Of a DNA stretch of 14,436 bases, positions 1 to 11,931 are shown piece after piece. Made by a program: the position numbers and the translations under genes. The DNA is from [Eubacterium] saphenum (GTDB taxonomy: Bacteria > Bacillota > Clostridia > Oscillospirales > Ruminococcaceae). The stretch spans positions 1 to 14,436 of the forward strand of contig SFHN01000013.1 in assembly GCA_004555635.1 (NCBI GenBank). The letters are read 5' to 3'. A model generated the notes under the pieces. That model saw only the letters and a list, made by a program, of their open reading frames with translations, was not told the DNA's origin and ran no database searches. Numbering within the stretch: the stretch's first letter is position 1; the number at the start of each line of letters is the position of its first letter.

Positions 1-744
1 GCCGTCGGGCGTTCTTACGCAGAACTGCGGCTCAAACTCGTCGGCAAGCGGCTCTTTCGTTATGATGTTTGCCGCAAGGGTGTTTATTACGGCGGCGTGC
101 TCGTTTATATTGTCCTTGGAGGAATTGAGTATTTCAAGCTCAATGCTGCCGCAGCGGTTAAGCCCGTGGGTGTGAAGCCAGACGTCGCTGTCCTCGTCGC
201 CTATGCACTGCACGCAATGCAGGCAGGACGCTGCAGGCGCCACCTCGGAAGCTGCTGTGAGCTTTGCCCAGCGGCCGGGGAAAAGCCGCTCGCCGCTGAA
301 ATCCGCAATGCCCGCAGCATTCGCAACGAGCGCGCACATCAGCTTTATTTGCAGGTGGAAGGAGCGCTGGTTGTCGCTGCCGAAAACCATACGCGTGTAA
401 ACGGCTTCCTTTGCGGCTTCAAGCGCAGAGCCTTCTCTTTCGGTGAAGTGCTGGTTTATTGCAAACAGCTTCGGCAGCTCAAATTCCGCGCAGACAACCG
501 AAAATTTGTACTCCTCATCCATATACTCGAGAGTAAAAACCACTGCCCCGCCGTCCTTCTCGTTTTGCGAAATGACCCTTACAAACGGAACGGCAAGCAT
601 TATCTGCTTAAACTGCTCGGGCGTTCTCGGAATATCGCCCGAAATCGGGACAGCCGCCATAACGGACGGGGTCTTTTCGATACGGCTAGAAAGCGGCTTT
701 GCGCTCTCGGCGGATTTCTTTTTGAATGTGTCAAATAAGCCCAT
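1..744 (-). CDS. DUF4026-like protein, C-terminus cut by window edge
   Basis: A minus-strand frame is open from ATG at 744 to the left edge (248 codons, no stop), so the C-terminus is missing. The protein starts MGLFDTFKKKSAESAKPLSS, followed by a segment (MAAVPISGDIPRTPEQFKQ, about residues 29-47) that resembles the N-terminus of DUF4026 proteins as I remember them. There is no signal peptide or membrane segment, so it is probably cytoplasmic. The later part is an alpha/beta sequence with several cysteines around residues 180-190 (SCLHCVQCIGDEDSD). The start is supported by GGGAGG at 753-758, eight bases upstream, and by a consensus promoter at 775-803. The opposite strand also has a 213-codon frame, but it lacks a comparable start signal and protein-like composition. 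The function of the family is unknown. The coding call is secure; the family name is moderately sure. Confidence 0.8.
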   Translation of the reverse strand, partial: MGLFDTFKKKSAESAKPLSSRIEKTPSVMAAVPISGDIPRTPEQFKQIMLAVPFVRVISQNEKDGGAVVFTLEYMDEEYKFSVVCAEFELPKLFAINQHFTEREGSALEAAKEAVYTRMVFGSDNQRSFHLQIKLMCALVANAAGIADFSGERLFPGRWAKLTAASEVAPAASCLHCVQCIGDEDSDVWLHTHGLNRCGSIELEILNSSKDNINEHAAVINTLAANIITKEPLADEFEPQFCVRTPDG

Positions 745-774
745 AGTGTTATCCTCCCGAAAAAGTTCTATATA

Positions 775-803
775 ATTGTAGCACAAATTCCGAATTATGT
801 CAA
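775..803 (-). promoter_or_regulatory. Sigma-A-type promoter for the DUF4026-like gene
   Basis: Read on the minus strand, a perfect TTGACA (798-803) is followed by a 17-base spacer and TACAAT (775-780). The predicted start of transcription lies about 25 bases upstream of the GGGAGG ribosome binding site of the gene starting at 744. The element sits in the short gap shared with the divergent ANT(6) gene starting at 833. Confidence 0.85.
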
Positions 804-832
804 CAATCCAACGAAATAGGAAGGAGTTGTTT

Positions 833-1681
833 ATGAACAAAACCGACAGATACCGCGATATCAAAAAGCGGCTTTCATACATCGCAAAAACCGACGAAAC
901 GCTGAAAGCGGTAATCGCAATCGGCTCGTCGGTTAGAAGCTGTTCGGATGCCGACGAATACTCCGACATCGACCTTATCATCGCGGCGACGGACACTGAA
1001 AAGTGGCTTTACGGCGATATGCCGAGTATGCTCGGCGAGATAAAAATCTCGTTTGTTGAGCCTACGCTTGGCGGCGGGCTGGAACGCAGAATGCTGTATG
1101 ACGGTTCGCTTGACGTTGACCTTATCGTGTTTACGCCCGAACAGCTTATTAGCGCGGTGTAAAACGGCGCTGCCGCCGAGGTGATGAACAGGGGCTATCT
1201 GATTATGCACGACGCAATGGGCATTTCCGCGCCGATTAACGAGCACATAAAGCTCGGCACTCGGACTGTCGAAATGACCGATAGCGAGTTTGCAAACAGG
1301 GTGAACGACTTCTGGTTTCACACCGTATGGGCGGCAAAGAAGATACTCCGCGGCGAGCTTTGGTGCGCGAAAATGTGCATTGACGCATACCTCAAAAACC
1401 ACCTGCTAAGCATAATCGAGCTGGACAGATATTGCACAGACAAAACAGATGTGTGGCACAGCGGGCGTTTTTTCGAGCAGTGGGCGGGCGGGGAAAACGT
1501 ATCCGCGCTCGAAAACTGCTTCGCGCATTATAACAGAGCGGATATGATAACAGCGCTGAAAAACACGGCAAAGCTGTTCTCAAAAAGCGCGAAATCCGCG
1601 GCGAAAACCTGCGGCTTTTCCTATCCCGAAAACGCAGAAAACTACGCGCAAAGGCTGCTTGCAGAATACTTCCCCGAATAA
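833..1681 (+). pseudogene. ANT(6)-type aminoglycoside 6-adenylyltransferase interrupted by one in-frame stop
   Basis: The start ATG at 833 follows AAGGAG (821-826). The first 109 codons show the nucleotidyltransferase signature: Gly31-Ser32, then D45-I-D47, and a further D94-V-D96 pair that would complete the carboxylates binding Mg-ATP. A TAA at 1160-1162 (codon 110) interrupts the gene. The same frame then stays open through 1681 with typical ANT(6) C-terminal features (VMNRGYLIMHDAMG, NDFWFHTVWAAKKILRGEL). Without the stop the protein would be 282 residues, about the usual length. The flanks read ISAV-stop-NGAAAEV, so one substitution such as AAA to TAA explains the break. Intact members of the family adenylate streptomycin. 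Restart at GTG 1181 or ATG 1184 has no properly spaced ribosome binding site and would lack the catalytic half. A sequencing error, recent decay or readthrough are the alternatives. The next gene is a putative efflux pump. Confidence 0.85.
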
Positions 1682-1696
1682 CGAAAGGAGATTTTT

Positions 1697-1735
1697 ATGA
1701 AGCGCTGCATTGGCAAAACTCCATGCAAGGAATGA
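1697..1735 (+). CDS. 12-residue leader peptide upstream of the MFS transporter
   Basis: The short frame MKRCIGKTPCKE starts at ATG 1697, seven bases after a strong AAAGGAG (1684-1690), and ends at TGA 1733-1735. It begins only 16 bases after the end of the broken ANT(6) gene. Its codons overlap RNA segments that can form alternative helices reaching the ribosome binding site of the MFS gene at 1812. A strong ribosome binding site, tiny size, basic N-terminus and placement before a probable efflux gene match leader peptides of translational attenuators such as those of erm and cat genes. The peptide itself is not one I recognise. Translation is inferred from the ribosome binding site; conservation in relatives would be the test. 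Confidence 0.6.
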   Translation: MKRCIGKTPCKE

Positions 1736-1811
1736 CGGACTGCATGGAGTAAAATCGCACGTCATACCTTGCTTTACATTCAGCTAAATCTATACTAAGG
1801 AGCAAGGTAAA
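1706..1811 (+). promoter_or_regulatory. Candidate translational attenuator of the MFS gene
   Basis: Four pairings can be traced by eye. (1) 1706-1713 with 1721-1727 (TGCATTGG with CCATGCA, one bulge). (2) 1718-1727 with 1741-1750 (ACTCCATGCA with TGCATGGAGT, 10 perfect pairs). (3) 1725-1737 with 1760-1772 (12 of 13 pairs, one A-A mismatch). (4) 1765-1773 with 1801-1809 (TACCTTGCT with AGCAAGGTA, 9 perfect pairs). Helix 4 takes in the end of the AAGGAG at 1797-1802 and the spacer before the ATG at 1812, so it should block initiation. Helix 3 uses the same anti-ribosome-binding-site strand and would free it. A ribosome stalled early in the leader ORF would block helix 2 and favour helix 3. There is no T-run after the hairpins, so translational rather than transcriptional control is more likely. 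The pairings are seen; the mechanism is inferred. Confidence 0.6.
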
Positions 1812-3092
1812 ATGAAATTTTTTGATACAGTTAAAGAACTCAAGGCTTTTATAATTCTCTGGCTTACGCAGTCGTTTTCGGCGCTCGGAAGCGCTATGAC
1901 AAGCTTCGCGCTGGTTATACGGCTGTATCGCGACAGCGGCTCGGCGCTGACTACCGCGCTGCTAACCGTCTGCTCGTATGCGCCCTATGTCGTTATGAGC
2001 ATTTTCGCAGGCGCAATCAGCGACAAGTGGAACAAGAAAACCGTTATGCTTGTCTGCGACAGCTTTGCGGCAATGTGTACGGTTGCGGTGCTTGTGCTTC
2101 TGAAAACAGACACGCTTGAAGTTTGGCATTTGTATATGCTTAACGCACTAAACGGGCTGATGAACACAATCCAGTCGCCCGCGTCAGACGTGGCGGCGAC
2201 GCTGCTTACGCCCGAAAAGCACTATCAGAAAACCAGCGGAATGAGGTCGTTTTCTAACTCGCTGGTGTCAATCCTGACCCCCGTTTTTGCAACAGCTGTG
2301 ATGGCGTTTGCGGGAATAGAAGCGGTAATAGCCTTTGACCTCGCTACATTCGCCGCGGCATTTCTTGTGCTGCTTTTTTTCATAAAAATACCCGAGGTCA
2401 AAAAGGAAAAGGAGCAGCCCGAAACGCTTGTTCAGGCGGCGAAAAGCGGGCTTTTGTACCTCAAAAAAAACCGCGGTATTCTCTGGCTTATTCTTTTCCT
2501 CGCGGCAATAAACCTTATCGCCTCGATGTACAACGCGGCGCTGCCCGCGATGATTTTGTCCAAAAAGGACGAAGCTGCGCTCGGCTTTGTTAGCAGCTCA
2601 GTCGGCATAGCAACGCTTGCCGGAAGCGTCATCGCAACGTTTTTCCCGAAGCCGAAAAGCAGGGTTAAGCTGGTGTGCGCGTGCCTTATGATTTCGATGA
2701 GCACGAACAACTTCCTGCTTGCATTCGGAAACAGCACGGTTATCTGGTGCTTTGGCGCGGTGCTGGGCTGGCTGTTTATCCCGCTGATGAGCGCAAACTA
2801 CGAGGTTCTGCTTCGCACGAACGTCCCGAAGGAAATGCTCGGAAGAGTGTATTCCGCAAGAAACACGCTTCAGTTTTTCACTATCCCTATCGGCTATTTT
2901 CTTAGCGGAGTGCTGGTTGACGAGGTGTTCGAGCCGCTTATGGAAAAAGTGCCGCAGGGCAGCCTGCTTACGGTTGTTTTCGGCGAGGGCAAAGGCTCGG
3001 GAGCCGCTTTCCTGTACTTTGTCATAGGCATAGTGGGAGTTGCCGTGTGCCTGTTTTTCCAACGGATAAAAGCGCTAAGAGAGCTTGACTGA
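1812..3092 (+). CDS. MFS efflux transporter, macrolide-efflux-like (MFS_3 type)
   Basis: This 426-residue hydrophobic protein has about 12 predicted membrane helices and no signal peptide. The signature loop between helices 2 and 3 (AGAISDKWNKKTVM, about residues 66-79) matches MFS motif A, with Asp followed by basic residues. The central loop near residue 200 is charged (EVKKEKEQPE), as expected between the two six-helix halves. Overall layout and N-terminus (KAFIILWLTQSFSALGSAMT) resemble the Mef-like, proton-driven drug exporters of Firmicutes, but the substrate cannot be read from sequence. The ATG at 1812 follows AAGGAG at 1797-1802, which overlaps a possible blocking hairpin with the leader ORF upstream. 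The gene is probably co-transcribed with the broken ANT(6) gene and ends at a symmetrical terminator shared with the convergent lipoprotein gene. Confidence 0.88.
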   Translation: MKFFDTVKELKAFIILWLTQSFSALGSAMTSFALVIRLYRDSGSALTTALLTVCSYAPYVVMSIFAGAISDKWNKKTVMLVCDSFAAMCTVAVLVLLKTDTLEVWHLYMLNALNGLMNTIQSPASDVAATLLTPEKHYQKTSGMRSFSNSLVSILTPVFATAVMAFAGIEAVIAFDLATFAAAFLVLLFFIKIPEVKKEKEQPETLVQAAKSGLLYLKKNRGILWLILFLAAINLIASMYNAALPAMILSKKDEAALGFVSSSVGIATLAGSVIATFFPKPKSRVKLVCACLMISMSTNNFLLAFGNSTVIWCFGAVLGWLFIPLMSANYEVLLRTNVPKEMLGRVYSARNTLQFFTIPIGYFLSGVLVDEVFEPLMEKVPQGSLLTVVFGEGKGSGAAFLYFVIGIVGVAVCLFFQRIKALRELD

Positions 3093-3116
3093 CGGCGTTT
3101 TCAAGGCATAAAACTG

Positions 3117-3148
3117 CCCCGAGAGGATAACTCCCCTCGGGGTGATTT
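3117..3148. terminator. Bidirectional intrinsic terminator
   Basis: CCCCGAG (3117-3123) pairs with CTCGGGG (3136-3142), extended by two G-C pairs across a bulged A. A T-rich stretch (GATTTTG) follows on the plus strand, and AGTTTTAT follows on the minus strand. It lies between the convergent MFS gene and the 688-residue lipoprotein gene and probably serves both. Confidence 0.8.
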
Positions 3149-3159
3149 TGTGCGAAGGT

Positions 3160-5226
3160 TTACCCTACGGCGTTCGCATAGTACGCGTCGAGGTCGTAGT
3201 TTTCGCGGAAATAACTCAGCGTGTAGGCGGGGTTTATGCTGCTTTCCCAGAAAAGCACCGTGTCGTCTGTAATGCACTCGAAGCTGTCGCGAATGCAGGC
3301 GCAGAGATACGCCGCTTTAAGCTGCATTGCGCTTCCCTTGAAATAAGAGGGAAGCATATCTGCGGAGGCTGTCGCAACGTTCTCGAATATCCGCGCCCTG
3401 TCCTCGCTCGGGAATGTCATAGAATAACCGTCAACGAAATATATCGAGTTCACGTCAGTCCCGCAGCCGTCATAGTACAGCGCGCCGTTGTACTCCACCG
3501 CGTCATAGCCCAGCGTAACCCCGTATTCGTCGGTGTATCTGAAGTAGTAGGAAAAGTCCTCGGGGTTAAGCATATCCCAGCGCGCAAAGCACTCCCTGTC
3601 GCGCCACTCCGCGCTGTCGTAGTCAAGACAGTACACCGCGTTTTCGATAATGTGCATAAGCTCGTGCGCGGCGTTCTTTTCGATACCGCTGCCCTGCGTT
3701 ATGTCAAGCACCATCATCCTGATGTCGTTTTCCGTTGTCACAAACGCAACGGCGTCATTTATCGAACCGCTTTCGTTGAGGTTAGGGATAATCCTGCCCG
3801 TCAGATAAACGCACAGCTCGTTACACCCCGAAAATTTGCCGACAAGCTCGTCAAAAAAGCCCGCAGGGAACTTTCCGAAAAATCCGTCAAGCGTTATAAG
3901 CGCGTTGTTGATGAGCTTTTCGTCCGTTTCGGACACAACCGCGTAATCATTAAAATGCCGCACTCCGTCCGCGCCGTAAAACACCTCTACCGAGTACTTC
4001 TCCGATATTCTCTGCGCAAGCGCGTGGTTTTCCGCAGAATAATCCGCGCCCGACAACGCGTCGTAGCCGCGGTGCTCCGCGGCTTCCTGCGGCTTCCACA
4101 CAATAAGCTTGCTAAAATATGCGCCGCATTCCGTGTTTAAGATAACGTATTCTCCGTATTCGCAGACGTTGGAAATGTATGCGAAGCTGTCGGGGAAATC
4201 GGCTTTAAGCTGCGCTGTCAGCCTTCCGCTTTCCGCGTCATAGCGGTACAGCTCAAGAACGCTCTTATCCCCTTCATCGGAGGCTCTGCTCCCGTAAAAA
4301 TACAGGCTGTCGCTGCCGCCGTCAGAGTTCACAAGCATAGTTCCGACAGGCGTTTCGAGAACCTTTTTTATCATCGGAAGCTCGGGGTCAAAAATAACCG
4401 TCTGCGTGGAATTGTACTGCGAAACGATAATCTTTCCGTCAGCCGCCGAAGCATACTCGTTGTCAAGAATACGAAGCGGAGTTACCTCGCCCGAGCTCTC
4501 GGAGAGTACCCCGTAGAAAAAGTCGTAAGTATCCTCGTCATAATAGCATATGAGATATTCTCCCTTGCCGACAGCGCCAACGACATACGAAAGGCTCAGG
4601 TTTTCGGAAAACTTCGGATAAATCTCCTTGCTTTCGAGTTTTCCGCTGCTGTCGGGCGTAATGGTAACAATGCGGTTTGTTCCCGAGTTGTCCGCAATCG
4701 CAAGAGTATCTCCCATCAGCCTGAAAAATGAGTCCGAAATCCCGAAGCTCTCGGAATGCAGCTCGGTAAAGCTGCGGTCGTATACTGTAACCGTGCTGTC
4801 GGAATACCTCACGGAAATCGGAAAGCCGTTTACAAGAAAAAAGGTATACTCCGAAATAAACTCGTCGTCCGTCGAAATCACGGCAGAGGATATTTCCATA
4901 GTCGAAAGGTCGGTCAGCTGAAGCGTATAGCCTGCTTCGCTGAACAGACCGCTTAAAATCAGCCCGTCTGAATTATCGCCCGAAGGATAAAACAGGTCTG
5001 CGTTAATCTCAAGACTGCGCAGCCTCTCGCCGTAGGGAACCGTAAAATCCGCGATATCGACAGGCTCCGCAACCTCTGGCGGCTCAGTTGTTTCAACAGA
5101 TGTCGCAGACTGTTCCGTGCTGTCCGAGGGAGAAATCTGCGGCTCCTTTTCGGTATCCGCACAGCCCGCCGATAGCACCGCCGCGAGCAGAGCCGCAATA
5201 ATAGCCTTGCAGCGCTTAATTTTCAT
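3160..5226 (-). CDS. Large lipoprotein with C-terminal HExxH zinc-metallopeptidase-like domain
   Basis: This is a 688-residue protein. Residues 1-22 form a lipoprotein signal peptide (basic start, Ala/Leu core, VLSAGC with Cys22), so it should be anchored outside the membrane. Residues 23-60 are a Ser/Thr/Glu/Pro linker. Residues 60-380 are a repetitive beta-rich region (strands such as SLYFYGSRA, KSVLELYRYD, KLIVWKP) that looks like a beta-propeller-type sensor or binding domain. Residues 395-688 carry the motif HELMH at 521-525, the classic zinc site of gluzincin peptidases, with acidic candidates for a third ligand downstream (E540, E545). I do not recognise a named family. The start at 5226 follows GGGAGGG (5234-5240) and a perfect TTGACA/TATAAT promoter. 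A 332-codon frame on the opposite strand is its shadow. Substrate and activity are unknown. Coding certain, metallopeptidase role likely. Confidence 0.85.
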   Translation of the reverse strand: MKIKRCKAIIAALLAAVLSAGCADTEKEPQISPSDSTEQSATSVETTEPPEVAEPVDIADFTVPYGERLRSLEINADLFYPSGDNSDGLILSGLFSEAGYTLQLTDLSTMEISSAVISTDDEFISEYTFFLVNGFPISVRYSDSTVTVYDRSFTELHSESFGISDSFFRLMGDTLAIADNSGTNRIVTITPDSSGKLESKEIYPKFSENLSLSYVVGAVGKGEYLICYYDEDTYDFFYGVLSESSGEVTPLRILDNEYASAADGKIIVSQYNSTQTVIFDPELPMIKKVLETPVGTMLVNSDGGSDSLYFYGSRASDEGDKSVLELYRYDAESGRLTAQLKADFPDSFAYISNVCEYGEYVILNTECGAYFSKLIVWKPQEAAEHRGYDALSGADYSAENHALAQRISEKYSVEVFYGADGVRHFNDYAVVSETDEKLINNALITLDGFFGKFPAGFFDELVGKFSGCNELCVYLTGRIIPNLNESGSINDAVAFVTTENDIRMMVLDITQGSGIEKNAAHELMHIIENAVYCLDYDSAEWRDRECFARWDMLNPEDFSYYFRYTDEYGVTLGYDAVEYNGALYYDGCGTDVNSIYFVDGYSMTFPSEDRARIFENVATASADMLPSYFKGSAMQLKAAYLCACIRDSFECITDDTVLFWESSINPAYTLSYFRENYDLDAYYANAVG

Positions 5227-7600: not shown

Positions 7601-9022
7601 TTAAAGGTTTTCGTCAATCCACTTATAGCGGGTGTTCAGAAAGCGTCTGATGTATCCTATCTGCTCGTTATAGGTGGAATACTGCGCCATCTGCCGTGGC
7701 TGAAAGCCGTTTGCAATGCTAAGCGTATCCCACACGGCAAAGTTCTCGTCAGCCGAAGCGCCGATAAGCTTCTGCGCTTCCTCCATCGTTGAGATAGCGC
7801 ACTCAAGAAGTCCGACCTTCACCTCGTCCCAGCGCGCACGCGCACGCGCGCGGAAATCGGGGTCGGTCATCAGGTAGTTGAACCAGTTCACGCCAATGTA
7901 TGAGGAGCTGTTAGAATTTCCGACAGTCGCCCAGTCGTCGTAGCGGGGATTGTCCGCGTACATATTTCCGAAAGCGAGGTCAAAGTCCCACACGGGACCC
8001 ATCTTCAGCCGCTGTCCCCTGTCCTTCGTCAGAAAGCAGCTTCTGTGGAAGCAGGAGTCTGCGTTGTAGGTAAGCTCGTGAAGAATGAACCAATCAATGA
8101 AATTGTCGGTGTCAATGTATGTGTCGTAATTCGTGAGCGTTGTCACAGCGTTGTCGGCGAGCGTAACATATTTGTAGATGTAATCGTAGTTTTCCTGCTT
8201 CAGCTTGTCATCGGCGGGAGCCTTTATCATCACGTTTTTCGCGCAGCCCGACGGGAAATCGAAGAACTCCAGCCCGCGGGCGTCATACGCGGGGTCTGCG
8301 CCGCCCACCTCGAGGAGATAGCCCGTGTTCGGGGAATCGTCGCGCTCGTCAAGCGGCAGGCGCGAATTCTTCGATTCGACAAGCTCACCGAGCGTGTAAA
8401 TGCCCTGATATACGCCGTTCATATAAAGATTTACGGGAACAGCCTTCGGCGTAAACTCAAAGCTGCCGAGGTACTCCGCCATCGAAAACGCAATCAGGTT
8501 GCGCGCCATCGACTCGTCTGCGTAGTTTGACAGCAGCGCCCAGTTCTTCGAGGCGGTCATTCCGAGCAGCGACTCCTTCTCGTCAAGCTTCAGTTTATAC
8601 GGCTTCTTGGGCCACTCCCAAGTCGAATGTCCCCTGCCGCGGATAGTCGCGGAAAGAGGCTTTGTGCTTGGGTAATCGTCGGTCATAGAACTGTCGATTT
8701 CTATGCGGCACTCGGTGTATTCGTCGCGGGAAATTTCACCGTTTACGGTGAGGAAAACGGACGGTATGAGCGCTTCGGTTTCCTGCCCCGGCTCGCCCAA
8801 AATCTCCTTTTGCATACCTCCCCAGGTGTCGCTGAGGCTCTCGGGGTTGTAGTCGGGAGTATAATACGGGTCTTCCATAGGAATAACCGCAGCAGGCTCG
8901 CCGCTGTTTGTGCTTTCCGAAGGAGAAGTCTGCCCGCTTCCCGAGGAAACGGTGTCACCCGAACAGCCGGACATAGAAACCATCAAAGCCGCGCAGACCG
9001 CCGCGCACAAAGCTCTTTTCAT
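7601..9022 (-). CDS. CotH-kinase-domain lipoprotein
   Basis: This 473-residue protein begins at ATG 9022, where GGAGGT (9028-9033) lies five bases upstream and a lipoprotein signal peptide follows (MKRALCAAVC to MSGC, Cys20). An in-frame start 32 codons further upstream has neither and lies inside the promoter. Residues 21-80 are a Ser/Pro/Glu linker. Residues 90-460 match the CotH family: ATIRGRGHSTW (about 125-135), KKPYKLKLDEKESLLGM, the LLSNYADESMARN block (163-175), YMNGVYQGIYTLGE, and the metal-binding GPVWDFDLAFGN (342-353, D346 and D348). CotH of Bacillus spores is an atypical protein kinase. In fibre-degrading Ruminococcaceae, CotH domains occur on surface and cellulosome-associated proteins. 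This one is divergent from a GH5 lipoprotein, which suggests a role in polysaccharide handling at the cell surface. The target is unknown. Confidence 0.9.
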   Translation of the reverse strand: MKRALCAAVCAALMVSMSGCSGDTVSSGSGQTSPSESTNSGEPAAVIPMEDPYYTPDYNPESLSDTWGGMQKEILGEPGQETEALIPSVFLTVNGEISRDEYTECRIEIDSSMTDDYPSTKPLSATIRGRGHSTWEWPKKPYKLKLDEKESLLGMTASKNWALLSNYADESMARNLIAFSMAEYLGSFEFTPKAVPVNLYMNGVYQGIYTLGELVESKNSRLPLDERDDSPNTGYLLEVGGADPAYDARGLEFFDFPSGCAKNVMIKAPADDKLKQENYDYIYKYVTLADNAVTTLTNYDTYIDTDNFIDWFILHELTYNADSCFHRSCFLTKDRGQRLKMGPVWDFDLAFGNMYADNPRYDDWATVGNSNSSSYIGVNWFNYLMTDPDFRARARARWDEVKVGLLECAISTMEEAQKLIGASADENFAVWDTLSIANGFQPRQMAQYSTYNEQIGYIRRFLNTRYKWIDENL

Positions 9023-9089
9023 ACAATACCTCCGAACCGCAGCAGCATTTTGCAAACAATACTGCAGAGTAACATTTTTATACAAATTT

Positions 9090-9118
9090 ATTATACTAAA
9101 ATTTCCGCAAATTGTCAA
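9090..9118 (-). promoter_or_regulatory. Consensus promoter of the CotH-domain gene
   Basis: On the minus strand, TTGACA (9113-9118), a 17-base spacer and TATAAT (9090-9095) are a perfect promoter. The transcript would start about 60 bases before the ATG at 9022. Confidence 0.85.
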
Positions 9119-9177: not shown

Positions 9178-9206
9178 TTGCTTTTAACGCGAAAATATTA
9201 TATAAT
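9178..9206 (+). promoter_or_regulatory. Promoter of the GH5 gene and downstream operon
   Basis: TTGCTT (9178-9183), a 17-base spacer and perfect TATAAT (9201-9206) precede the ribosome binding site AAGGAG (9234-9239) and ATG 9247. The weaker -35 box contrasts with the perfect divergent promoter at 9090-9118. About 60 bases between the two -35 boxes could hold a regulator site, but no clear palindrome is visible there. Confidence 0.75.
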
Positions 9207-9246
9207 AGTGGTGGCAGTTTATTACCGAAACATAAGGAGAAAAACT

Positions 9247-11034
9247 ATGAAGCTAAAACAGATTATCGCGGCTGCGGTATGCGCCGTAATGACAATTGCC
9301 TGCGCCGGCTGTACAAAGGACACACCCTCCTCGCAGCCCGATGCGCCCGAAAGCGCCCCCTCGCAGGACGCTCCCGCAGGTGAGGAAAACGACCTCACCT
9401 CGCTAGAAGTGATAAGGCTGATGGGCAACGGCATTAACCTTGGAAACACGCTTGAGGCATATGCGCACCGGAACTACCTTTCGGGGTCTGACCCAACCTC
9501 TGCCGAAACCGTCTGGGGACAGCCCAAAACCACCGCCGAGATGATTAACGGAATGAAAGCAGCGGGCTTTGACACGCTGCGCATTCCCGTTGCCTGGACA
9601 AACGGAATGAACTTTGAAAGCGGCGACTACACCATCGACGAGCGCCTTATGGCGAGGGTCGAGGAGGTCGTAAACTATGCGCTCGATGCAGATATGTACG
9701 TTATCATAAACGACCACTGGGACGGCGGCTGGTGGGGTATGTTCGGCTCGCCCGACGAAAACGTGCGCAAGCAGGCGGACGAGATGTACAAGTCTATGTG
9801 GACGCAGATTGGCACGCGCTTTAAGAACTATTCCTACAAGCTGATTTTCGAGGCGGCAAACGAGGAGCTTGGCGACAGGCTCAACGACTCGGATATCACG
9901 GGCGTAAAAGGCACGCTGTCTAAGGACGAGTGCTATGCCGAAACCAACCGAATAAACAGCGAGTTTGTAAAGACAATCCGTGCGCTCGGCGGGAGAAACT
10001 CCGACCGCTTCCTGCTGATTGCGGGCTACAACACCGACATCACCTGCACGGCGGACGACCGCTTCGTAATGCCCGAGGACACCGCACAGAACAAGCTTCT
10101 GCTGTCGGTTCACTACTACACGCCGTGGGACTACTGCGGCACGGAGAGCATAAATCAGTGGGGCTCCGTTACCGACTACAACGAGCAGAACAAGCTGTTC
10201 AAGACGCTCAGCAAATTCTCCGAGGCGGGCTACGGCGTGGTTATCGGCGAGTATGCGGTTATGTCCTCAAAGGGAGTTAAGCCCGATACGGACAAGTTCT
10301 ACACAAACGTTATGGACAACTGCGACCTGTACGACTTCTGCCCCGTGCTGTGGGACTGCAGCGACTTCTTCAAGCGCAGCACTCTGACTGCTTCCGACGA
10401 AACGCTGGCGGCGCTGTTCCTTGCGAGAAGCTACGACAACGAAAAGTCGAAGTCCCTTGACGATATAAAAACAGCCGCGCAGAACAGCCTTGACAGCGCG
10501 ATGAAGAACGCCGAGGACGAAATGCTTTCCGATATCGACATCCCTGCGGCAGACGACAAGGCGGTCGCTTGGATAATGTTCGCAAGCGGCGATTACAGCG
10601 TTTCTTACTGCGTCGGCGACATCTATGACCCGACAAACAAGACGAAGGGAATTGTCGCGAAAAACGCCGAGATTACGGGCGAGGGCAAATATACCGTAAG
10701 CCTTGATTTCTCGGGCTGCGGCGCGGCAAAGGGCTGCTCGTTCTCCGCGCTCGGCATTTCAAACGGCGAAACGCTGTTCCCCGACTATGTGATAACGATA
10801 GAGCAGCTTCTGATTAACGGCGAGCCTGCCGAGCTTTCGGGAAAGAACTACACAAGCTCCGACGACGGAAAATGCACCCGCACGAACCTGTACAACGGGT
10901 GGGTGGGCGTTGTTCCCGACGACGCAAGAACGCTTGACAGCGACATTTCGGGCTGCTCGGCACAGATTATGAACATCGGCGCAAAGCAGAAGGTAAATTC
11001 CATCGAGATTACTTTCTCGTTTGACAAGCCCTAA
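9247..11034 (+). CDS. GH5 glycoside hydrolase (endoglucanase-like) lipoprotein with C-terminal accessory domain
   Basis: This 595-residue protein starts at ATG 9247, after AAGGAG. A lipoprotein signal peptide ends at Cys22 (ACAGC; Cys19 is possible). A Pro/Ser/Glu linker runs to about residue 50. The GH5 barrel spans residues 52-400: MGNGINLGNTLEAY (59-72), FDTLRIPVAW with Arg112, IINDHWDGGWW (153-163), catalytic acid/base Glu206 in EAANEE, HYYTPW (289-294), nucleophile Glu335 in VVIGEYAV, and substrate-stacking Trp369. These residues cover the full GH5 active site, so a retaining beta-glucanase is expected, most likely acting on cellulose or a related beta-glucan. Residues about 438-595 form a beta-rich C-terminal domain with conserved-looking aromatics (W442, Y454, W552), probably carbohydrate-binding; I cannot assign a family. 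No dockerin is present, so the enzyme is tethered by lipid. It is the first gene of the operon reaching rlmA. Confidence 0.93.
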   Translation: MKLKQIIAAAVCAVMTIACAGCTKDTPSSQPDAPESAPSQDAPAGEENDLTSLEVIRLMGNGINLGNTLEAYAHRNYLSGSDPTSAETVWGQPKTTAEMINGMKAAGFDTLRIPVAWTNGMNFESGDYTIDERLMARVEEVVNYALDADMYVIINDHWDGGWWGMFGSPDENVRKQADEMYKSMWTQIGTRFKNYSYKLIFEAANEELGDRLNDSDITGVKGTLSKDECYAETNRINSEFVKTIRALGGRNSDRFLLIAGYNTDITCTADDRFVMPEDTAQNKLLLSVHYYTPWDYCGTESINQWGSVTDYNEQNKLFKTLSKFSEAGYGVVIGEYAVMSSKGVKPDTDKFYTNVMDNCDLYDFCPVLWDCSDFFKRSTLTASDETLAALFLARSYDNEKSKSLDDIKTAAQNSLDSAMKNAEDEMLSDIDIPAADDKAVAWIMFASGDYSVSYCVGDIYDPTNKTKGIVAKNAEITGEGKYTVSLDFSGCGAAKGCSFSALGISNGETLFPDYVITIEQLLINGEPAELSGKNYTSSDDGKCTRTNLYNGWVGVVPDDARTLDSDISGCSAQIMNIGAKQKVNSIEITFSFDKP

Positions 11035-11055: not shown

Positions 11056-11931
11056 ATGTCATACTTCATCTGCCCCGTCTGCGCGGAAAAGCACGGCGCC
11101 GCCGCTCCCGCGCTTAACCGAGAGGGCGCAGTGCTGCGCTGCGAAAAAGGGCACAGCTTTGACATATCCTCAAAGGGGTATGTTAACCTGCTGCTGTCGC
11201 AGCACAAAAACACGAAAGACCCCGGCGACAGCAAGGAAATGGCAGCAGCAAGGCGGCTGTTCCTTTCGAGCGGAGCGTATCAGCCGCTGAAGGACAGCCT
11301 GTGCGCGGCGGCAGCAGAGTGCTGCAGGGATAATTCCGCGCCGGTAATAGCGGACTGCGGCTGCGGCGAGGGATATTACACCGAGGGGTTATACGACGCG
11401 CTTTGCCGCGGCGGGAATACGCCCGAGATTTTCGCGGTGGATATCAGCAAAAACGTGCTCGCGGCGGCAAAGCCAAGGTTCAGGGAGCGCAAAATTCACG
11501 CGGCGGCGGCAAGCTGCTTTCGTATGCCGCTGCCTGATGAATGCGTTGACCTTGCGGCGGTTGTGTTTGCGCCGTTTTGCAGGGAGGAGCTGCTGCGCAT
11601 TGTAAAACAGGGCGGGTATGTCATTGACGTTATCCCCGCGCGCGAGCACCTCTACGAGCTTAAAGAGCTGCTCTATGAGCACCCCTACTACAACGAGGTT
11701 AAGCCCTACGGCATAGACGGGCTTGCGCTTGCAGACAAGCGCGAGGTGAGCTATGAGCTGACGATTACGGAGCAGGAAATGCTGAACGCGCTGTTCACGA
11801 TGACCCCGTACTACTACAAAACTTCCCCCGCAGACAGCGCCGCGCTGTACAGCTACTTCGGCACGCACAGCGTTTTTAAGGTGCGCGCGGCTTTTGAGAT
11901 ACTGATTTACCGAAAGGAGCGAGAACGTTGA
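11056..11931 (+). CDS. rlmA: 23S rRNA guanine-N1 methyltransferase, RlmA family
   Basis: This 291-residue protein has the RlmA layout. An N-terminal zinc finger has Cys6, Cys9, Cys29 and His33 as ligands (CPVC and CEKGHSFD). It is followed by the family hallmark KGYVNLL and a GDSKEMAAARR block (57-67). The SAM-binding motif I is IADCGCGEGYY (98-108), and FAPFCREELLRIVKQGG (171-187) is the later Rossmann strand. RlmA enzymes methylate N1 of G745 or G748 in helix 35 of 23S rRNA, at the peptide exit tunnel. Gram-positive members (RlmAII, TlrB) use G748, and TlrB contributes to tylosin resistance. The ATG follows GAAAGGAG (11041-11048) only 21 bases after the GH5 stop, with no terminator between. 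The last bases overlap the TTG start of the next gene. Confidence 0.9.
   Translation: MSYFICPVCAEKHGAAAPALNREGAVLRCEKGHSFDISSKGYVNLLLSQHKNTKDPGDSKEMAAARRLFLSSGAYQPLKDSLCAAAAECCRDNSAPVIADCGCGEGYYTEGLYDALCRGGNTPEIFAVDISKNVLAAAKPRFRERKIHAAAASCFRMPLPDECVDLAAVVFAPFCREELLRIVKQGGYVIDVIPAREHLYELKELLYEHPYYNEVKPYGIDGLALADKREVSYELTITEQEMLNALFTMTPYYYKTSPADSAALYSYFGTHSVFKVRAAFEILIYRKERER

Follow-up and report, generated by a model that had tools for sequence, protein, structure and literature searches.

Among the closest described systems, the ermC-type attenuator combines a leader open reading frame (ORF) with alternative stem-loops, and a stalled ribosome frees the Shine-Dalgarno (SD) sequence of the resistance gene, while the leaders of cat-86 and of the cat gene of pC194 are short and are induced by a stall within the leader (both in the accessible part of PMC4191407). 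According to the available portions of PMC4335068 and PMC10314930, the mef(E) and msr(D) leaders, mef(E)L and msr(D)L, act on transcription through a terminator, and for cplR of Clostridioides the accessible text of PMC10201436 describes an upstream ORF (uORF) that is just MR[I/M], with a terminator as well. The stretch analysed here, 14,436 nucleotides (nt) of [Eubacterium] saphenum (contig SFHN01000013.1; hereafter the window), holds a leader ORF and competing RNA helices ahead of a gene for an MFS transporter. The leader follows the same general logic as the ermC-type attenuator, and the switch proposed for it shares a short leader and induction by a stall with cat-86 and pC194 cat. Leader control of Mef-type MFS and ABC-F genes is also known from mef(E)L and msr(D)L, and the drug-induced cplR is likewise clostridial and likewise sequesters an SD sequence.

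We consider that the window leader is very probably a ribosome-mediated translational attenuator with erm/cat logic, as an earlier note on this DNA had proposed, a reading that the helices, their conservation, covariation and a computational scan of ribosome positions all support. The ORF, the helices, their mutual exclusion, their conservation and the codon window of the switch come from sequence or computation; translation of the ORF, stalling, a drug as the signal and drug export by the MFS protein are what we infer from them. When no ribosome stalls, helix A would form and leave 1765-1773 to pair with 1801-1809 (helix C), burying the ribosome binding site of the pump gene (OFF). A drug-bound ribosome would stall early, its P site at roughly codon 4 or 5 of the leader, and its leading edge would cover the 5' arm of helix A and stop just before 1725. 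The 5' arm of helix B would then be free to take the shared strand, and helix B would preclude helix C and allow the pump to be translated (ON).

Direct reading of the sequence confirmed everything that the earlier note had placed in this region, namely the leader ORF, both SD sequences, the two copies of GCAAGG (1725-1730 and 1802-1807) and the helices. Helix A (1718-1727 with 1741-1750) pairs at 10 of 10 positions, helix B (1725-1737 with 1760-1772) at 12 of 13 and helix C (1765-1773 with 1801-1809) at 9 of 9. Their energies are -15.0, -17.2 and -10.4 kcal/mol, respectively, and A and C together reach -25.4, or -27.6 with two U.G pairs over the whole GGAG; because of these values, A+C is more stable than B when all strands are free, and B is more stable than C once A is blocked. 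Folding with RNAfold bears out the competition: 1682-1830 gives A+C, a blocked state, and 1723-1830, with the 5' part removed, forms B with helix C absent. Among 2000 dinucleotide-preserving shuffles of window 1697-1814, a 10-bp Watson-Crick hairpin occurred in none, a 12-of-13 helix in none, a 9-bp helix in 13 and all three in none. That the helices are a product of chance above an untranslated ORF draws some support from the modest overall stability of the fold, only about two standard deviations below 200 shuffles (z -1.96, with 10 as good; z -2.21, with 3 as good), and the case therefore rests on the competing arrangement and the comparative data and not on total energy. Given the absence of the three-helix arrangement from the shuffles and the in-frame conservation described below, the chance explanation has next to no probability; the comparative data refute a chance origin of the helices, and translation of the leader ORF is predicted.

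Homologous loci were fetched from species genomes with an alignment (A1) of 22 MFS homologues out of 120 listed, and the best 80 of 371 stretches encoding a relative were kept. Immediately ahead of the MFS gene, this leader is present at 75 of these 80 loci, including one that runs into a contig end with the ORF start beyond it (L023), one with a long insert (L016) and two degenerate copies (L063 and L079). With L016 and L023 left out, the leader set comprised 74 leaders (73 loci and the window), whose starts were hand-picked from candidate ORFs. The ORF is exactly 12 codons long in 60 of the 74. The distance from the start codon to helix A is 21 nt in 60 of 69 aligned leaders, and with the starts so picked the helix is in frame in all 69.

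Reduced forms of the leader are also found. At two MFS loci (L115 and L116), matched at E 5e-4 and 7e-4 by a covariance model built from the A+C structure (R1), the GGAGG that serves the MFS gene lies in the 3' arm of helix A itself, and helices B and C are not seen. By eye, two CatA-like loci (L125 and L129) have the short leaders MKRGLDEAF and MARSRKIAF above a single hairpin with the SD in its 3' arm; the MKRGLD of the first also occurs in two three-helix CatA-like leaders. Attenuators of cat genes are built in this way too, with one hairpin and the SD in its 3' arm. Since a leader-bound ribosome would expose the SD in such one-hairpin forms too, they support the proposed direction of the switch, in which a blocked helix A means ON.

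Covariation was counted for both states in an alignment of 69 rows (A2), from which L007, L016, L044, L052, L063 and L079 were excluded for inserts or decay. In the OFF state (A+C) 89.9% of cells are paired, against 27-39% when the helices are slid, and 73 cells have changed on both sides, against 4-14. For the ON state (B) the values are 87.4% against 29-43%, and 81 cells against 14-41. In neither state did any of 500 shuffles match the paired percentage, the number of both-side cells or the covariation score; the helices are kept largely through compensatory change. The key column is 160 (window 1768): in helix C it forms C-G in 30 rows, U-A in 37 and U-G in 2, and in helix B G-C in 30, A-U in 20 and G-U in 19. 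The shared strand thus covaries with two mutually exclusive partners, as a switch requires. On the MFS protein tree there were 2-9 changes per column among the columns listed, and the pairing partner changed in the matching direction far more often than against it.

The position at which a ribosome would work the switch was explored by a mask scan of the 74 leaders, in which a footprint from -14 to +15 nt around the P-site codon (an assumed size) was placed at each codon and the openness of four SD bases of the pump gene was computed. Median openness was 0.08 with no ribosome, 0.03-0.06 at codons 1-2, 0.28 at codon 3, 0.49 at codon 4 and 0.46 at codon 5. The gain from codon 1 to codon 4 or 5 exceeded 0.2 in 66% of the leaders and in 14% of 148 shuffled controls, with medians of 0.34 and 0.007 (Mann-Whitney p 8e-17), the shuffled controls starting from a more open state (median 0.30). 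When codon 5 occupies the P site, the front edge of the modelled ribosome lies at about 1724, just short of the 5' arm of helix B. The scan therefore predicts an early stall with M-x-L-C-I as the nascent chain. Among the 60 twelve-codon leaders, Leu-3 is present in 51, through six different codons; Cys-4 in 52, through both of its codons, the other eight having Ala, Ile, Leu or Met; Ile-5 in 48 (ATT in 47); a G-first codon 6 (Ala, Val, Asp or Gly) in 53; and Cys-10 in 56. The conservation at M-x-L-C-I lies where helices A, B and C impose no pairing, and this start of the peptide looks to be under selection.

Several observations weigh against this reading and deserve to be set beside it. The number of pair types does not exceed that of the controls, 284 of 500 shuffles being as high for the OFF state and 194 of 500 for the ON state, and the seven pairs of helix B with a both-side change fall within the 4-8 of slid versions and are reached by 10 of 500 shuffles. 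The outer pairs of the window are poorly kept (1718-1750 is unpaired in 41 of 69 rows, 1773-1801 in 61 and the last pair of helix B in 35), and on the tree no single-column sign test reached 0.05 among the columns listed, the events being too few. The leader is not directly upstream of the MFS gene at five of the 80 loci: L070 has none, L039 has the 3' half alone, at a contig end, and L027, L034 and L054 show a weak match (R1, E 0.004-0.009) farther upstream, ahead of another operon. Masks at codons 6-13 also leave the SD partly open (medians falling from 0.42 to 0.32), and a late stall is not cleanly separated by the scan; some leaders do not respond to the masks, such as L001, which is open throughout. 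The proposal of the earlier note that an early stall switches the pump on is borne out in the scan for codons 4 and 5, which open the SD best, and not for codons 1-2, and the response of the window leader is weak (from 0.07 to 0.23 at codons 4-5). Finally, no promoter is seen directly upstream of the window leader, where the best pair of elements within 120 nt has 6 of 12 matches.

An alternative level of control is transcription: one of the helices would be an intrinsic terminator and the leader would govern read-through, as for mef(E), msr(D) and in part cplR. Such attenuation is used by related drug leaders (accessible parts of PMC4335068 and PMC10314930), and both levels are combined in the one described in the available text of PMC10201436. 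At least five T within 8 nt follow helix B in 24 of 69 leaders, at least six in just three, and a stall would favour helix B; a terminator there would turn the pump off in the presence of the drug. After helices A and C, which make up the OFF state, such a stretch occurs in one and none of the 69 leaders, and an intrinsic terminator formed in the OFF state was not found. Terminator control is thus quite improbable, and by the counts of T stretches control is most likely translational.

The scaffold also stands before genes of other kinds, as found by genome searches at E <= 0.001 per genome, where about 0.1-0.4 false matches are expected per search. R1 matched in 27 of 391 genomes of Clostridia and in 5 of 398 of Bacilli. 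Directly downstream of the 27 Clostridia loci is an MFS gene in 20 (by hidden Markov model), a CatA-like gene in three (L110-L112; L111 and L112 profile-scanned, L110 assigned by 90% identity to L112) and a Cfr gene in one (L117); of the rest, L099 was left unscored, L113 precedes a doubtful methyltransferase-domain protein and L114 has no intact target in view. Three of the five Bacilli loci precede an MFS gene, L120 has no clear target and L121 precedes a CD3324-like gene. An enlarged model (R2, from 90 matches already including the three CatA-like loci, L117, L121, L027, L034 and L054) matched in 8 of 95 genomes of one order, its six new loci each standing before an MFS gene, and in 39 of 194 genomes of the order of Clostridium zeae. 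Inspection of 29 loci of the latter (L148-L176, among which L162 and L164 repeat the leaders of L054 and L027) found 12 before an MFS gene (by BLAST or by eye, with identity to that of the window down to 37%), 12 before a CD3324-like gene (by eye), one before Cfr (L172), two before a ceramidase-like protein, one 48 nt before an esterase gene and one unclear.

The CD3324-like protein of L027 was profile-scanned and scores 115 bits against a cut-off of 65. An ABC-F gene follows the CD3324 gene at L027, L054/L162, L165, L166, L169 and L170, a recurrent two-gene unit, and the ABC-F protein of L027 lies above the cut-off of the ribosomal-protection model (408 against 380 bits); at L159, L161, L174, L176 and L121 no ABC-F gene was seen within the sequence stretch. 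Leaders of the CD3324 loci mostly start M-x-L-[T/V/A]-[I/N] (L121 and L176 do not fit), and their C-terminal part reads one frame off, with SSMQSL or SSMQRL in place of APCKV. It seems that the RNA fixes the 3' half of the leader and the peptide its 5' half.

A separate search for CatA-like proteins found them in 16 of 291 genomes at E 1e-40, and three of 20 loci fetched carry an R1 match at E < 1e-6 (L122-L124, the same genes as L112, L110 and L111). The CatA-like proteins score 214 and 212 bits, below the CatA cut-off of 270, and the L111/L124 leader is an MFS-type peptide (MKFCIAVFPCKA). A further CatA-like locus with a weak R1 match (L131, E 0.026) was set aside for its unconvincing fold. 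The Cfr association rests on L117 and L172; both proteins are above the model cut-off, and in neither locus was a clear 12-codon leader ORF found. Taken alone, the weak R1 match of L117 (E 7e-4, one of 391 genomes) could be chance, and its R2 match is partly by construction; a Cfr family search of 196 Clostridia genomes gave none at E 1e-120, with the control genomes silent too. At L117 the end of a protein that resembles an ABC-F C-terminus by eye stops right before the Cfr leader region, which suggests an ABC-F/Cfr pair. At L156 and L157 a protein with a ceramidase-like N-terminal domain (36 against 32 bits) follows directly behind the scaffold, under the leaders MLIQPLCIVSAPCMV and MLIQPLCIVFAPCIV; it is possible that this protein is an unrecognised resistance enzyme.

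The presence of ABC-F, CatA-like and Cfr genes behind the same scaffold strengthens the case for ribosome-targeting drugs as inferred inducers, and the whole gene set, with MFS, suggests 50S drugs that act around the peptidyl transferase centre; the signal is probably some 50S drug acting near this centre or the tunnel entrance. The Cys content of the peptide (Cys-4 and Cys-10) would also suit the sensing of an amino acid, in which the ribosome would stall at hungry codons 4 and 5 (Cys, or Ile) in the manner of biosynthetic attenuators, and the MFS protein would carry a metabolite. However, codon 10 lies inside helix A and is hence constrained by pairing, Cys-4 gives way to other residues in eight of the 60 leaders and to Thr, Val or Ala in CD3324-type leaders, the L002 leader (MLLMIDTAPGKE, translated by eye) has no Cys, and other genes under the scaffold are of drug-resistance types. 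Amino-acid sensing is accordingly very improbable, more so than terminator control.

Among 50S drugs, a phenicol is conceivable and far from assured as the signal; its sensing would follow the established rule that the penultimate residue is small, codon 5 being in the P site. The leaders of cat-86 and pC194 have a small residue at position 4 too. Cys or Ala occupies position 4 in 56 of 60 MFS leaders, Thr, Val or Ala does so in those of CD3324 type and Gly in two CatA-like ones, and CatA-like genes, one of them under an MFS-type peptide, and Cfr lie behind the scaffold. The rule for chloramphenicol, in the accessible part of PMC8066774, asks for Ala, Ser or Thr at the penultimate position and excludes Gly from the A site. 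It does not name Cys, and codon 6 encodes Gly in nine of the 60 leaders, that of the window among them. The Gly-6 of the window leader argues against simple chloramphenicol sensing there, and the scores of the CatA-like proteins under the CatA cut-off tell against a phenicol as well. In the accessible part of a review of drug context rules, neither a Cys nor a lincosamide rule was found.

A macrolide signal, as for Mef and MsrD, is rather unlikely. For the window MFS protein the best NCBIfam model is TIGR00900, below its cut-off, followed by Mef(C), Mef(B) and Mef(A), which makes the Mef models the nearest among named drug pumps. Its scores stay under their curated cut-offs (110 of 870, 101 of 800 and 97 of 675 bits, or about one eighth to one seventh), and the MRLR motif is absent. 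CatA enzymes are not known to act on macrolides. Several CD3324-type leaders start with MYLTI or MFLTI, comparable to the macrolide-sensing MsrDL peptide MYLIFM, which depends on Leu-3 and Ile-4 (accessible part of PMC10314930).

Features of the attenuator and the pump gene in the window
Feature	Position	Strand	Basis
Shine-Dalgarno of leader ORF (AAAGGAG)	1684..1690	+	sequence; ATG 6 nt on
Leader ORF, 12 codons, MKRCIGKTPCKE, stop TGA ending at 1735	1697..1735	+	sequence, homologous loci
Helix A 5' arm, leader codon 8 to first base of codon 11	1718..1727	+	sequence, folding, covariation
Helix A 3' arm	1741..1750	+	sequence, folding, covariation
Helix B 5' arm (ON state), includes leader stop codon	1725..1737	+	folding, covariation, energies
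Helix B 3' arm (ON state)	1760..1772	+	folding, covariation, energies
Helix C 5' arm (OFF state), on the strand that helix B also uses; extended to 1775 by U.G pairs	1765..1773	+	folding, covariation, energies
Helix C 3' arm (OFF state); with extension spans 1799-1809, including GGAG of pump SD	1801..1809	+	folding, covariation, energies
Shine-Dalgarno of MFS gene (AAGGAG)	1797..1802	+	sequence
MFS transporter, 426 aa, MFS_1/MFS_3, start ATG 1812	1812..3092	+	Pfam, NCBIfam, homologues

Codons 3-5 of the window leader lie within the conserved M-x-L-C-I, and its Arg-3 is a minority form, present in three of 60 twelve-codon leaders. The pump exceeds the Pfam gathering scores of MFS_1 and MFS_3 (118 and 78 bits against 33 and 27); its close homologues are named as proteins of Oscillospiraceae and of Ruminiclostridium metagenome-assembled genomes, and only two plasmid records hold relatives at E <= 1e-60. 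An inverted repeat of terminator-like form lies 3' of the MFS gene (3117-3143), with 11 pairs on the - strand (3142-3117) and 5 pairs on the + strand (3130-3143).

Upstream, an ANT(6)/AadS-like aminoglycoside nucleotidyltransferase gene occupies window 833-1681; an in-frame TAA at 1160-1162 splits it, and both pieces match Adenyl_transf. The leader begins 15 nt past the end of this gene and is probably co-transcribed with it; a promoter scan of window 700-3300 gave no + strand site. Among the 74 leaders, 24 have an upstream promoter-like pair with at least 10 of 12 matches, compared with 4% of shuffled upstream stretches. Since tblastn found no relative of either ANT(6)-like piece in the stretches around the 80 homologous loci, the gene appears to stand outside the switch system, and the suggestion of the earlier note that aminoglycosides might be the inducer gained no support. 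Elsewhere in the window, 11056-11931 encodes an RlmA-like 23S rRNA guanine methyltransferase (PRK11088, 233 of 303 bits, with weaker matches to MyrA, ChrB and Erm(32)), and a gene for a CotH-domain protein (7601-9118, -) adjoins a GH5 cellulase gene (9178-11034, +).

The family seems to have gone without a description. Rfam 15 gave no match at gathering score for the window leader (none at E up to 5) or for 20 relatives, and blastn of the leader DNA against plasmids and phages returned chance-level matches only, the best at E of about 1 and 2. A literature search that included the peptide motif and left supplements outside found no description of the leader (the motif matched unrelated dengue work), and none is contained in the accessible parts of PMC8066774, PMC4191407, PMC12121999, PMC13410324, PMC10314930, PMC10201436 and PMC4335068. 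The switch is apparently widespread in gut and soil Firmicutes and unnamed.

The drug-inducible leaders known so far have mostly been discovered gene by gene, often on the mobile elements of pathogens. The present leader recurs across the species genomes of Firmicutes from commensal and soil settings. Speculatively, one RNA scaffold with an exchangeable M-x-L-small-I sensor may serve as a general module of resistance induction in Bacillota, standing ahead of genes of at least four unrelated kinds (MFS, CD3324+ABC-F, CatA-like and Cfr) and sensing 50S drugs through an undescribed nascent-chain context (codon 5 in the P site, preceded by Cys or another small residue at position 4). If so, the ceramidase-like proteins (L156 and L157), and perhaps the esterase (L154), would be unrecognised drug-modifying enzymes. 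The covariance model could be used to find inducible, and hence phenotypically hidden, resistance genes, and the leaders offer a natural series of peptides for mapping the context rules of 50S drugs.

Compared with the described systems, this family is distinct in several respects. The ErmCL peptide differs from M-x-L-C-I...APCK. In contrast to mef(E)L and msr(D)L, whose peptides MTASMRLR and MYLIFM are also different, the family lacks T stretches of terminator type behind helices A and C, save for the single leader with one after A; cplR, in the accessible text of PMC10201436, has a uORF of only MR[I/M] and an added terminator. Unlike cat-86 and pC194 cat, the window leader has a three-helix, double-negative form, with a different peptide, and unlike ermC its family has a predicted early stall window (codons 4-5) and controls MFS genes and, in relatives, ABC-F, CatA-like and Cfr genes. 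Overall, the general mechanism is already known; the family, its peptide and the use of one scaffold before several unrelated resistance genes appear to be new.

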